Positions 7,041 through 11,533 of a stretch of 64,000 bases of DNA are shown here, piece after piece (position 1 is the first letter of the stretch; every line of letters begins with the position of its first letter). Position numbers and translations under genes: made by a program. The notes under the pieces were generated by a model. That model was given only the letters and a program-made list of their open reading frames with translations, did no database searches and was not told the DNA's origin. Source of the DNA: Mycobacterium sp. ITM-2016-00316 (lineage in GTDB: Bacteria; Actinomycetota; Actinomycetes; Mycobacteriales; Mycobacteriaceae); NCBI RefSeq assembly GCF_002968335.2, contig NZ_CP134398.1, forward strand, positions 1,550,001 through 1,614,000, read 5' to 3'.

Positions 7041-8354
7041 CTAGTTGTCCGACCGTGGCGGTGGTTCGTATGGTGTGTACCACCACCATTGCGCGCGTTC
7101 GCCTTTTGGCCCAGGGCACGGTAGTACATCCGGCGGGGGTGTCGTCGGTGGGCGGGCCAGCGACGCGTCGGTGAGGGTGTCACCGTCGCTGTCAGTGACT
7201 TTGAGGTTCTCGGCGGGCCCGGTCAGGGTGATGACACCCTTGTGGTGCAGGCGGTGGTGAAACGGGCACAACAAGACCAGGTTGGACAGATCGGTGGGGC
7301 CGCCGTCCTCCCAGTGCACCAGGTGATGGGCATGCAGACCGCGGGTGGCCCCGCAACCGGGCACCACGCAGGTCTGGTCGCGGTGCTCCAGGGCGCGGCG
7401 GAGCCGGCGGTTGATGGTGCGGGTGGCCCGGCCGACGCCGATGGGGCGGCCGTGGCGTTCGAACCACACCTCACAGGTGGCATCGCAGAGCAGATATCGG
7501 CGGTCGTCTGCGGTGAGGGCCGGGCCCAGATGCGGGGCCGCGACCCGTTTCTCGAGGTCGAGGTGCATGACCACGGTGGTGTGCTGGCCGTGCGGGCGGC
7601 GCGCCACGTCGGCGTCCCAGCCGGCCTCGATCAGGCTCATGAATGTATCCACGCCGTCCGGGAACGGCGGTGCCTGCTCAGAAATCGTGGATTCCTGGTC
7701 CCAGACGCGGGCACTACCGTCCTCGGGATCAATGCTGTCCTGCGCATCGTGGTCACGTTTCCAGTCCGCCACCAAAGCGTCCCGATGTGATTGCAGGCCT
7801 GCTTCGAATTTCGCGGCCTCCACCTTGGGCAGGGTGATCCGCCACGTCGTGGAATCGTCGTTCTCGATCTTGGTGATCTTGCGTGTCGGTTCGGGCTTGG
7901 ACTCGGGGTCGGGGCGGGGTTCCTGCTTGACCGCGGTGCGCAACTGGACGACGGTGGCGACCTTCACCAACTCCGCGTAATGCTCATCGCAGCCCTGGCC
8001 ACCGCCTTCAGCGATCACCCCGATCTGATCCAAGGACACCCGACCCTCCCGTAAGCCTTGGGTGCAGCGGGGAAGTTCGTCGATGCGATGGGCCACGGCG
8101 ACCATAGTTTCGGCGTTGCGAGGAGAGATACCGGCCTTCCACGCGACCAACGCCTCGATCGACCGGCATCCGGTGGAACCCCACAGGGAGTTGCCGTCAT
8201 CGGTGCCTCTGCCATCGATCTCGGCGACGATCTCCACCAACCGGCCATCGATCGCATTGCGCTGCCCGGTCAACTCCGCCATCTCGTCGAACAACACCTC
8301 CAACCGCGACACCCGAGGTGTGTGTGCGGCGAAAGGTGTTGTCGGCGGCGGCAT
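7041..8354 (-). CDS. 13E12-repeat protein: DUF222 plus HNH endonuclease domain
   Basis: 437 residues. The N-terminal two thirds is the DUF222 domain. The C-terminus is an HNH nuclease with CVVPGCGATRGLHAHHLVHW, then GGPTDLSNLVLLCPFHH, giving the paired Cys zinc site and the His-Asn-His catalytic core. Mycobacterial genomes carry many diverged copies (REP13E12 in M. tuberculosis, where one is a prophage integration target). A second, quite different copy lies at 15586-17037 on the same strand. Role unknown; probably a selfish or DNA-repair-like nuclease family. Confidence 0.9.
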   Translation of the reverse strand: MPPPTTPFAAHTPRVSRLEVLFDEMAELTGQRNAIDGRLVEIVAEIDGRGTDDGNSLWGSTGCRSIEALVAWKAGISPRNAETMVAVAHRIDELPRCTQGLREGRVSLDQIGVIAEGGGQGCDEHYAELVKVATVVQLRTAVKQEPRPDPESKPEPTRKITKIENDDSTTWRITLPKVEAAKFEAGLQSHRDALVADWKRDHDAQDSIDPEDGSARVWDQESTISEQAPPFPDGVDTFMSLIEAGWDADVARRPHGQHTTVVMHLDLEKRVAAPHLGPALTADDRRYLLCDATCEVWFERHGRPIGVGRATRTINRRLRRALEHRDQTCVVPGCGATRGLHAHHLVHWEDGGPTDLSNLVLLCPFHHRLHHKGVITLTGPAENLKVTDSDGDTLTDASLARPPTTPPPDVLPCPGPKGERAQWWWYTPYEPPPRSDN

Positions 8355-8442
8355 ACCACGATTCTAACGAGGTGGTCCGACACCTAGATCGAGCTCTGGA
8401 ACCCTCCGGTGATGACCTCGCCGCTACAGGGAACCGAAAACG

Positions 8443-8556
8443 TCAGGCGACGTCCGCGTCCACTACGTCAGGTCCACCGGGCGACTGCGCGCACGTCGAG
8501 CAGTCGGCCGAATCGATGTCGATGTGTCCGCAGCTCGGGCAGATGAAAGGGATCAT
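8443..8556 (-). CDS. 37-residue zinc-ribbon protein
   Basis: A short frame starting MIPFICPSCGHIDIDSADC, with two Cys-x2-Cys pairs (CPSC and CSTC) separated by about ten residues, which is a minimal zinc ribbon, and an acidic tail. An AAGG stretch lies eight bases before the ATG. Nothing else in the 8355-8718 gap looks coding. Such mini zinc ribbons usually bind nucleic acids or partner proteins; the function is unknown. Confidence rests on the motif and codon use, not on homology that could be checked here. Confidence 0.55.
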   Translation of the reverse strand: MIPFICPSCGHIDIDSADCSTCAQSPGGPDVVDADVA

Positions 8557-8718
8557 GGTCGGCGCCTTCAGGTCGGTGGTACGGCGCCGTATCGCGCCAA
8601 TGCCACGCCTGTACCCCGCAGGTATCCCAGCCCAAACCGGCTCAGGTGAACGAGAGATGAACTTTCGTGCGACACAGGGCCCGCGACCGGGTCCCAGGCT
8701 CGGTGCCGCACGGGTTGC

Positions 8719-9369
8719 TCAGTAGTCCCAGACCGCCGGGATGAAGCGGAATCCGCTGCCCGCGGTCGCCACGTGGCAGACCGACGGGAACGGCAGATGG
8801 GTGGCGACCAGCTGCTCGCTGGTGGCCGCCAGCTCGGTCAACAGCTTGATCCGGACCCGCGCCGACTCGCCCGACTTCACCCCCACCGTGATGCCCGCGC
8901 CCATCCCCGAGATACTGCGGCGGACCGCCGCGCAGTTCCTCGATGTCTACCGCAGTCAACTGTGGACCTTCGAGAACGAATACGAGGTGGCACCCGGCGT
9001 GCTGCTGCGCCGCACCGGAGGCCACACCCCCGGCCACCTCGCAGAACTCGGCCTCGGCGGTGGCGACGTGCACCCGCAGATCCGGGCGCAGCTTGTTGCG
9101 CAGTCCGTCGACGAGCAGCCCGCCGATGTGATCCATGTGCAGGTGGATGAGCACCACATCGGTCACCGAGGACGGCTCGATACCGGCGGCCACCAGACGC
9201 ATGCTCAGCTGCCCGGCCCGCGGGAAGTCCGGGAACTCGGTGCCGAGGCCGGAATCGATGAGGATGGTCTTGCCGCCGCTGCGCACGACGGCCACGTTCA
9301 GCGGCCAGTCCGTGATCTCCGGCGGCAGGTACATGTCCGGCTCAGATGTGCAACGCTGCCCACGCTCAT
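8719..9369 (-). pseudogene. Metallo-beta-lactamase-fold hydrolase, broken by an internal inversion
   Basis: The intact parent would start at the ATG at 9369 with a strong AGGAGA ribosome site. The first residues (MSVGSVAHLS) are in one frame and the rest (DMYLPPEITDWPLNVA) in another, so there is a frameshift near 9343. The N-terminal half then reads normally to the metal motif HLHMDHIGG and on to AEAEFCE near 9040. The C-terminal end (ARVRIKLLTELAATSE to PAVWDY) is again on the minus strand and stops at 8719. The piece that should sit between them is found on the plus strand (8868-9037). About 40 residues after the GGHTPGH motif appear to be missing altogether. No functional product is expected. 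Confidence 0.85.
8868..9037 (+). other. Inverted internal segment of the metallo-beta-lactamase gene
   Basis: Read on the plus strand this segment gives SPDFTPTVMPAPIPEILRRT, then FLDVYRSQLWTFENEYEVAP, and ends in RRTGGHTPGH. GGHTPGH is the third metal-binding motif of the metallo-beta-lactamase fold. It belongs between the two minus-strand halves of the surrounding pseudogene. The borders (roughly 8868 and 9037) were placed where family-like sequence ends on each strand and are accurate to about ten bases. Confidence 0.8.
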
Positions 9370-9471
9370 GGTGTTCTCCTGATCGTCGTGTCGACGAAGG
9401 TGCGGGTTGCCCTTCTACCCGCTCGAACGCACGGTTTTCGCAGAGTTTTCCCGATCAGGCATCCTGGAGGC

Positions 9472-10227
9472 ATGAATTCTTCTCTGGACGCCATGCCTGA
9501 TGCTCTGCTGGAGGAGTTTCAGGTGTTGCGCGAGGAGTTCTCCCGATTCATGTTCGCCTACAAGTTCGGCATGGACGAGGTGACGACCAAGGTCTCCATC
9601 CTGCAGCAGGAGTTCAAGCATCTGCAGAAGTACAACCCGATCGAGCATGTGACCAGCCGGCTCAAGACGCCGGAAAGTGTGCTCGACAAGATCGCCCGCA
9701 AGCAGTGCGAGCCCCGTTTCGAGGAGATTCGCGCCAAGATCACCGATATCGCCGGCGTCCGGGTCACCTGCTCATTCACCTCGGACGTCTACCTGATCTC
9801 CGACGCGCTCACGCGGCAGGACGATCTCACCGTCCTTCAGCTGAAAGACTATGTGGCCGAGCCCAAACCGAACGGCTACCGGAGCCTGCACCTGATCGTC
9901 GAGGTGCCGGTCTTCCTGTCCAGCGGAGTGGTCAATGTTCCGGTCGAGGTGCAGGTGCGCACCGTGGCGATGGATTTCTGGGCCAGCCTCGAACACAAGA
10001 TCTTCTACAAGTACTCCGGTGCGGTCCCTCCCCATATCGCGCGCAGCCTGGAAGAAGCCGCGACCACCGCCGCGCGGTTGGATGACGAGATGGAGAGCCT
10101 GCACCACGACGTGCACGGGGCGCTGCCGCCCGTCCCGGTCGAGATGGCCAGCGGCAGTATCCCGATCCCCGACGCGGTGCTGGCGCGCTTTGCCCAGCAG
10201 CGGCAGGGGTTCGCGCCGCTGCTGTAG
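9472..10227 (+). CDS. Small alarmone synthetase (RelA/SpoT-domain GTP pyrophosphokinase)
   Basis: 251 residues from ATG 9472. A GGAGG lies only one base upstream, so the ATG at 9493 is an alternative start. It holds a single RelA/SpoT synthetase domain: RLKTPESVLDKIARK, the catalytic-site region ITDIAGVRVTCSF, the GYRSLHLIV G-loop region and the EVQVRTVAMDFWASLEHK helix. There is no HD hydrolase domain and no TGS/ACT tail. This fits the short YjbM/YwaC/RelP-type synthetases that make (p)ppGpp during stress. It is transcribed away from the broken hydrolase gene and convergent with the monooxygenase at 10235. Confidence 0.9.
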   Translation: MNSSLDAMPDALLEEFQVLREEFSRFMFAYKFGMDEVTTKVSILQQEFKHLQKYNPIEHVTSRLKTPESVLDKIARKQCEPRFEEIRAKITDIAGVRVTCSFTSDVYLISDALTRQDDLTVLQLKDYVAEPKPNGYRSLHLIVEVPVFLSSGVVNVPVEVQVRTVAMDFWASLEHKIFYKYSGAVPPHIARSLEEAATTAARLDDEMESLHHDVHGALPPVPVEMASGSIPIPDAVLARFAQQRQGFAPLL

Positions 10228-10234
10228 CGGCAGG

Positions 10235-11533
10235 CTAGAACCGTTCCCGCAGTGGCCGATCGTGCGGGCTGCTGCGGTAGATGCCGCGGTCGATCAGCCG
10301 GGGGACCACCTCGTCGATGAACTCGCGGATCGCGGCCGAACCCGCCGAGAACATCAGGTTGAAGCCGCCGACGTTGCCGTCCTCATGCCAGGCCGCGAAG
10401 TCCTCGACGAGTGCATCGTAGGTGCCGACGAACTTACGGTGCGTGGCGCCACCGCGGCCGACGGCCTGCGCGACGACCTCCCACACCGTCACGCCGGGGC
10501 GTTCCTGGATCCAGGTGTAGAGGCCGACGTAGTTGCCGAAGGTGCTCTTGATCGTCTTCTCGACATCCTGGGGGCGGGGGAGTTCGTGGGTGGGGAACGG
10601 GTCGTTGATATCGCCGTAGCGGATGTCGAGTCCGAACTGTCCCAACGCGAATGGCGCGATCGGTTCCCAGTCGACGTAGCTGTCGAGTTCGGCCAGCTTC
10701 TCCTCGGCCTCGGTGGTCGTCCTACCGAGATAGGGGATGAGACCGGGGATGGGTGGCACCGAGCCGGGGGCGCGGCCCTGCTCGACGAGCGCCTTGTCCA
10801 GCGTCTCGCGGTATTCGGCCGCGCTCTCGCGGGTGGAGGAGTTGGTGAACACCATTTCCGCGTGTTTGGCGGCCACCCTGATGCCGGCGCCCGATCCGCC
10901 GGCCTGCGCGATCAGCGGGCGGCCCTGCCGGCTGGGCGCGATGTTCAGCGGGCCGGTGACCTCGAACAGGTTTCCCCGGTGGTTGATCGGTTCGGCGTAG
11001 AACCGGGTGAGTCCGTCCGGGTCGCGACGCAGGGATCGGTTGTCCCACAACGCCCGCATGACGTCGAGGAACTCGTCGGCGCGCGCGTAGCGGGCCTCGC
11101 GATCCAGGTGCTGTTTGAGGCTGTAGTTCAGTGCGAACTGGTCGATGACGGAGGTGACGGCGTTGTACCCGGCGCGCCCGTCCGACGCCTGGTCGAGGGA
11201 GGCCAGCAGCCGGGCCAGGTTGTACGGGTCGTAGAACGTGGTGGACGCGGTGGCGATCAGGCCGACGTGCTTGGTGTGCTGGGAGATGGCGGTCAGCGCG
11301 GTGATGGGTTCGGCGGGCCCGCCGTCGAAGGCCGGGGATCCGTTCAAGCCGGGGATGTCTCCGACGAACAGGGCGGTGAACAGGCCCTCGTCGCCGAACC
11401 TGCCGTACTCGATGAGTCGCTCGAAGGTGCCGCGCTCGGGCACACCGTGCGCCTGTTCGTACTTGTAGGCGCCCTGGTGCAGGTTGATGTCGTTGGCGAC
11501 CAGATTGAGATGCAGATAACGCTTTTCGGCCAT
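10235..11533 (-). CDS. LLM-class flavin monooxygenase (NtaA/SnaA/DszA type)
   Basis: 432 residues with an AGGAG site before the ATG. The sequence fits the flavin-dependent bacterial luciferase-like monooxygenases that act with a separate FMN reductase: LHLNLVANDINLHQGAY at the start, TASTTFYDPYNLARLLAS, SDGRAGYNAVTS and a central LIAQAGGSGAGI phosphate-binding segment. Members open C-N or C-S bonds (nitrilotriacetate, EDTA, dibenzothiophene sulfone) or oxidise ketones. It is the last gene of a BVMO-TetR-monooxygenase operon, so both oxygenases may act on one ketone-containing substrate. No reductase gene is nearby. Confidence 0.9.
   Translation of the reverse strand: MAEKRYLHLNLVANDINLHQGAYKYEQAHGVPERGTFERLIEYGRFGDEGLFTALFVGDIPGLNGSPAFDGGPAEPITALTAISQHTKHVGLIATASTTFYDPYNLARLLASLDQASDGRAGYNAVTSVIDQFALNYSLKQHLDREARYARADEFLDVMRALWDNRSLRRDPDGLTRFYAEPINHRGNLFEVTGPLNIAPSRQGRPLIAQAGGSGAGIRVAAKHAEMVFTNSSTRESAAEYRETLDKALVEQGRAPGSVPPIPGLIPYLGRTTTEAEEKLAELDSYVDWEPIAPFALGQFGLDIRYGDINDPFPTHELPRPQDVEKTIKSTFGNYVGLYTWIQERPGVTVWEVVAQAVGRGGATHRKFVGTYDALVEDFAAWHEDGNVGGFNLMFSAGSAAIREFIDEVVPRLIDRGIYRSSPHDRPLRERF

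Follow-up and report, generated by a model that had tools for sequence, protein, structure and literature searches.

How did a hydrolase gene of Mycobacterium sp. ITM-2016-00316 come to lie on both strands at once, and is the result a dead gene, a new gene, a reversible switch or an error of assembly? The locus (positions 8719–9369) sits in a window of 64,000 nucleotides that corresponds to bases 1,550,001–1,614,000 of a single-contig genome (5,986,944 bases, 99.99% complete). A preliminary description of this DNA had proposed that the gene carries an internal inversion of ~170 bases plus a deletion, with its ends on the minus strand and its middle, including the metal motif GGHTPGH, on the plus strand at 8868–9037. 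We compared the locus by pairwise blastn with its intact counterpart in Mycolicibacterium frederiksbergense LB 501T (locus L033 of genome G120, NZ_CP038799.1), the closest relative found at ~95% identity. The comparison confirmed the proposal: relative to L033, 170 bp are flipped and 114 bp are lost, and the coordinates given for the gene and for its middle proved exact. An intact frame of 304 amino acids occupies 1322–2236 in L033, and the same gene is present in the window as four pieces.

The outer parts of the locus match L033 on the opposite strand, with window 8411–8868 corresponding to L033 2543–2087 at 93.9% identity and window 9031–9338 to L033 1808–1501 at 95.5%; beyond these, window 9334–10300 corresponds to L033 1357–390 at 94.6%. 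The stretch at 8868–9037 matches L033 1803–1972 on the same strand over 170 gapless bp at 93.5% identity and is therefore inverted relative to its flanks, and the E value of this inverted match (2.5e-71) rules out chance. Since the N-terminal part, the middle, the C-terminal part with its downstream flank and the upstream flank show similar identity to L033, the pieces and their flanks look like one ancestral locus.

Read in the direction of the ancestral gene, the locus begins on the minus strand with the start codon and the few codons after it, which keep the original start frame (9335–9369, aligned to L033 1322–1356). These run into the joint of a deletion (9334–9338, minus strand) at a 5-bp direct repeat, the same five bases being present on both flanks in L033, where the frame shifts. 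The N-terminal part follows on the minus strand (9038–9334), with 99 codons and the first metal-binding motif, HLHMDH, as identified by tblastn and blastn to intact relatives. Comparison with L033 places the first inversion joint, between the N-terminal part and the inverted middle, at 9037–9041; 1 bp is shared there, and up to four bases represent either one substitution or filler. Next come the inverted middle with GGHTPGH (8868–9037, plus strand), the second inversion joint, between the middle and the C-terminal part (8867–8869, again with 1 bp shared), and the C-terminal part with the stop codon (8719–8868, minus strand, matching L033 2087–2236). At the second joint the window has no counterpart of L033 1973–2086, which adjoins the inverted piece; these 114 bp, or 38 codons, agree well with the roughly 40 codons that had been thought missing after GGHTPGH. 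The first ten codons had also been described as out of frame with the rest. They are, but the lesion is more than a frameshift, as 148 bp between the two 5-bp direct repeats, now merged at 9334–9338, are missing near the start, so the N-terminal part is incomplete as well.

Searched at the DNA level, 253 of 396 genomes in the genus gave a match at E ≤ 0.001, many of these matches being weak, and we surveyed orientation by placing the three protein pieces with tblastn on 141 fetched loci. The N-terminal, middle and C-terminal pieces lay on one strand with identical spacing in 121 loci, and the gap between the matched middle and C-terminal pieces was 117 bp in all of these. The middle was on the opposite strand in two loci, both from the ITM-2016-00316 genome, and its match was absent from the other 18 (13 with the N-terminal piece alone, one with the N- and C-terminal pieces, and four with nothing matched). 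The 123 loci with all three parts comprise 100 distinct sequences of the joined N- and C-terminal parts, the ITM-2016-00316 copy included. The preliminary description had named the same arrangement in orthologues, with an expressed protein, as an observation that would speak against a broken gene; we found the relatives intact, with the flipped arrangement in none of the 121 other loci carrying all three parts. As expected for a pseudogene, M. frederiksbergense LB 501T has an intact, colinear orthologue beside the same RelA/SpoT neighbour. We conclude that the rearrangement, known from one assembly, is derived and, as far as seen among the relatives examined, lineage-specific.

The protein encoded by L033 matches the metallo-beta-lactamase superfamily (PF00753) at 89.2 bits, against a curated cut-off of 22.7, and the same family scores 46.7 bits on the window's unaltered 230-amino-acid frame that holds the N-terminal part. 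The best match of the intact orthologue among solved structures is methyl parathion hydrolase (8zu4_A, E 1.5e-37), followed by related organophosphorus hydrolases and lactonases. It also matches the NCBIfam model for AidB-family AHL lactonases (NF047979); the likeness to methyl parathion hydrolase and AidB-type lactonases thus lies in these two matches, while the NF047979 score of 118.5 bits is far below the 360-bit equivalog cut-off and does not assign the protein to that class. In the metallo-beta-lactamase family, the GDA motif carries a bridging metal ligand. No product of the window holds a complete metal site, because HLHMDH and GGHTPGH are on opposite strands and the 38 deleted codons included the GDA motif, and a working enzyme is consequently not expected. 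In the plasmid collection, 147 records matched the query and none covered 80% of it, each of the 20 records listed covering 42%. DNA-level relatives of the hydrolase gene were present on rhizobial megaplasmids of Sinorhizobium and Rhizobium at 73–77% identity among the records listed (e.g., NZ_CP013054.1, 327359–328097), which suggests that the intact family is widely distributed or has been transferred.

Simple decay was one of the two origins that had been put forward for the broken gene, and the substitution pattern supports it. We counted changes in each piece relative to L033, using other relatives as outgroups and taking the ITM-2016-00316 lineage as the own branch and M. frederiksbergense as the sister. 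With three distinct outgroups (L063, L034 and L036; three sites set aside), changes on the own branch were mostly replacing (4 silent, 6 replacing; 6/10) and those on the sister branch mostly silent (12 silent, 3 replacing; 12/15), with a Fisher p of 0.087. Five outgroups, with seven sites set aside, gave 3 silent and 7 replacing changes on the own branch versus 11 and 0 on the sister branch (p = 0.001). A first outgroup set, in which two of the three loci were from the same species (L063 and L035, with identical N- plus C-terminal sequences), gave 2 and 6 versus 12 and 1 (p = 0.003). Dropping a replacing change at the edge of a joint moved these values to 0.099 (three distinct outgroups), 0.002 (five) and 0.007 (first set). 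Neutrality fits the counts on the own branch (p = 0.31 and 0.73) and does not fit those on the sister branch (p = 2e-5 and 4e-7). As a selection control we used the intact RelA/SpoT-domain neighbour (9472–10227, plus strand; PF04607, 111.4 bits), which is common to close relatives and is 96% identical to its counterpart at L033 and 94% to that at L003; dN/dS between the two genomes was 0.09 for this RelA/SpoT-like gene and 0.19 for the broken gene. These counts argue with moderate strength, their significance varying with the outgroups, for relaxed constraint on the own lineage, as for a dead gene.

A rearranged locus could in principle code for a new functional protein, and two frames are indeed open across it, one of 213 amino acids on the plus strand (8741–9382) and one of 230 amino acids on the minus strand (8642–9334). 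Openness means little here, however, since the intact relative also has long antisense frames (one of 572 amino acids). The plus frame matches no Pfam and no NCBIfam family at E ≤ 0.001, and substitutions on the own branch fit an absence of constraint in the former frame. The protein database yielded no chimeric product, either among the 120 hits listed of 426 for the plus frame or among the 120 of 4624 listed for the minus frame, for which scoring covered the 8000 candidates with the most words in common; this result does not prove absence, because a chimeric frame may go unpredicted. We consider a new protein extremely improbable. Three plus-frame hits that extend past the middle piece at first resembled other flipped copies and were rejected: P0006 and P0027 align with the query's antisense stretch, not with the intact hydrolase, in keeping with antisense reading of intact genes, and P0019 has the same look by reading. 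Two apparently long matches to the minus frame, P0137 and P0122, read as unflipped proteins that are apparently frameshifted further on.

The surroundings of the locus contain other lineage-variable DNA. A DUF222-HNH endonuclease-like gene lies at 7041–8354 on the minus strand (PF02720, 152.4 bits; PF01844, 30.4 bits) and is absent at the corresponding site in M. frederiksbergense LB 501T. It belongs to a dispersed family, being one of five full-length copies in the genome (the other four at 89–93% identity), with one more copy broken by a stop. We considered this nuclease gene as a cause of the damage and set it aside: Mycolicibacterium sp. P9-22 has a full-length copy (82%) ~1.2 kb beyond an intact hydrolase gene, and in genome G034 the first 116 residues of such a gene are present in the fetched stretch, near an intact hydrolase gene. 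In these few genomes, with DUF222-HNH genes near intact copies, the damage does not follow the presence of the nuclease gene. Farther along, a 59-kb lineage-specific island extends from window position ~21955 beyond the window end (genome 1,571,954–1,630,976). At the corresponding place M. frederiksbergense LB 501T lacks it, with the flanks ~58 bp apart. Neither the window nor the 20 kb surrounding the far edge of the island contains a tRNA gene, and the longest direct repeat between the island edges is 10 bp.

A comparison of 1.2 Mb of the genome (1,060,001–2,260,000) with 1.2 Mb of M. frederiksbergense (20,001–1,220,000) gave 887,503 aligned own bases in 77 alignments (at least 800 bp and at least 88% identity; mean 95.0%). 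Besides the 170-bp inversion, one of 167 low-identity stretches inside these alignments fits as a reverse complement. This second inversion, of 20 bp (genome ~1,137,177–1,137,196; L279 ~1778–1797), has a neighbouring deletion relative to M. frederiksbergense LB 501T, and open frames overlap it in both genomes. A third relative, G145, seems to share the M. frederiksbergense orientation at this site, to the extent that it aligns there, so the 20-bp inversion apparently also occurred on the own branch. Two such scars, one of 170 bp and one of 20 bp, thus fall on the same branch within 0.89 Mb of alignment, a comparison in which very short inversions would escape detection. Because the compared stretch was chosen for holding the finding, two events give no unbiased rate.

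The close identity to L033 places the breaks, in L033 coordinates, at 1802|1803, 1972|1973 and 2086|2087. The piece from 1803 to 1972 was flipped and that from 1973 to 2086 was lost. At the first break there was neither loss nor duplication, L033 1802 and 1803 being the abutting bases, as expected of a cut, a flip and a rejoining. Each of the two inversion joints shares ~1 bp, and 44–48% of random joints would overlap by 1 bp or more, so there is no sign of annealing. The 148-bp deletion has a 5-bp overlap, expected in 0.5–0.8% of random joints, and the rarity of such an overlap by chance indicates that this deletion is probably a different sort of event. One study of M. smegmatis (PMC3519483) reports that deletions between direct repeats exceed background ~1,000-fold and do not depend on end joining, although the repeat lengths used there may not match 5 bp. 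On the side of end joining, the genome encodes Ku (185.1 bits) next to a 789-amino-acid frame with a LigD polymerase domain (303.4 bits; genome 4,845,266–4,846,643), and three further LigD-type polymerase-domain matches lie at 430,956, 1,764,852 and 5,495,880, one over the cut-off and two just under. Judged by these matches, end-joining parts are well represented in the genome.

The explanation that we consider quite probable is that this is a lineage-specific hydrolase pseudogene with two kinds of lesion, misrejoined breaks that account for the inversion and the 114-bp loss, and the separate 148-bp deletion. DNA breaks within the gene would have been misrejoined, with a 170-bp fragment reinserted in flipped orientation and the adjoining 114-bp fragment lost. 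We infer Ku/LigD-type illegitimate end joining for the inversion and the 114-bp loss, given joints with ~1 bp in common and free of inverted repeats, and a genome that encodes both Ku and LigD; the 148-bp deletion between 5-bp repeats would then reflect repeat-mediated slippage or annealing. The joints fit replication template switching as well as end joining, with end joining favored. In a template switch, the complementary strand would have been copied 170 bases backwards before a return jump 114 bases further on, producing the inversion and the deletion in one step and without double-strand breaks. The arrangement is consistent with the order that the four switch points would have, and the second inversion with deletion on this branch, of 20 bp, would be in keeping with an error of replication. 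A 12-bp perfect inverted repeat encloses the flipped piece (8819–8830 and 9185–9196; 11/12 in L033) and could have brought the strands together, favoring a hairpin or a template switch; of 195 stretches of 651 bases in the window, 6 contain a perfect 12-bp inverted repeat. Mutation clusters from short-range template switching are described for great apes (PMC7954356), and a review of bacterial template switching is among the works cited in PMC8755829. Such a switch, however, requires the copied piece to end exactly where the first jump began (L033 1802|1803), for which cutting is simpler. Only ~1 bp is shared per jump, inverted matches within 20 bp do not exceed chance, and the folding energies predicted for the breaks with RNA parameters lie inside the range of the whole gene. 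Template switching is accordingly a possible but doubtful source of the inversion.

The other origin that had been suggested, recombination through short inverted repeats such as TCGCC/GGCGA near the borders, possibly as a reversible intragenic switch, is largely contradicted. TCGCC (8867–8871) straddles the new joint between the C-terminal part and the middle at 8868 and was therefore made by the event and is not its cause, and GGCGA (9062–9066) is ~25 bp from the other border. Chanin et al. reportedly described inversions inside bacterial coding sequences in 2024, and the enclosing 12-bp repeat is perfect. Exchange at that repeat, however, would flip everything between its arms, whereas the flipped piece ends 38 and 148 bp short of them, so the repeat was not the crossover site. 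For the three L033 break pairs, the longest exact match in inverted orientation no farther than 20 bp away is 4, 6 and 6 bp, a length attained at 100%, 58% and 68% of random places (n = 400, same spacing, same gene). None of the 121 other loci is flipped, and with two deletions a simple flip could not restore a working gene. We regard this origin as highly unlikely. An assembly or sequencing artefact, raised by the fact that the arrangement comes from one assembly, is also unlikely, if slightly less so: the genome is a single contig of 99.99% completeness, the locus has no long inverted repeats to mislead an assembler, the excess of replacing substitutions in the pieces is not expected from misassembly, and the same gene carries the independent 148-bp deletion.

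Among known systems, the locus resembles bacterial pseudogenes produced by rearrangement and deletion in having a broken frame, orthologues that are intact at the corresponding site and signs of relaxed constraint; it differs in its flipped internal segment. Such a segment is rarer in bacterial pseudogenes than a frameshift, a stop, a deletion or an interruption by an insertion sequence. Intragenic invertons and other phase-variable inversions likewise lie within coding sequence, but the borders here lack the inverted repeats of an inverton, the flip cannot restore the gene and no such inversion was seen in the relatives examined. The likeness to Ku/LigD end-joining scars, to go by the genes predicted and the joints, would be in the little shared sequence at the joints, the loss of a fragment and the presence of Ku and LigD genes, while the 148-bp deletion with its 5-bp repeat better fits a repeat-mediated deletion. 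Human-chimpanzee microinversions also replace a local stretch of otherwise colinear sequence by its reverse complement. In the study of these (Potapova et al. 2022, PMC8755829), all 59 are 17–33 nt long and flanked by inverted repeats, in contrast to the 170 bp, the chance-level inverted matches at the borders and the 114-bp deletion of the ITM-2016-00316 inversion. Another report (PMC2483231) suggests that microinversions could be used as microbial markers. Among the titles listed in literature searches on intragenic inversions and microinversions, none concerned a comparable bacterial inversion-plus-deletion scar, though one may be in print.

The locus is a well-resolved short inversion in a bacterial gene, and relatives at ~95% identity let its joints be read almost base by base. 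In contrast to the human-chimpanzee microinversions, it shows that a scar of this kind can form where the borders carry no inverted repeats, and the detection of a 170-bp and a 20-bp inversion in 887,503 aligned own bases at ~95% identity provides a first yardstick. We suggest, tentatively and with more doubt than confidence, that an inversion with an adjoining deletion may be a recurrent, end-joining-type class of mutation in Ku/LigD-bearing actinobacteria, independent of inverted repeats at the borders. If so, such scars would have been missed because annotation sees the broken frames alone, and frame-based annotation is likely to report unrelated short frames at such loci. The gene itself is a lineage-specific pseudogene of a known kind, a fairly ordinary dead gene with an instructive scar, and for the organism it means that one lactonase-like hydrolase has been lost.
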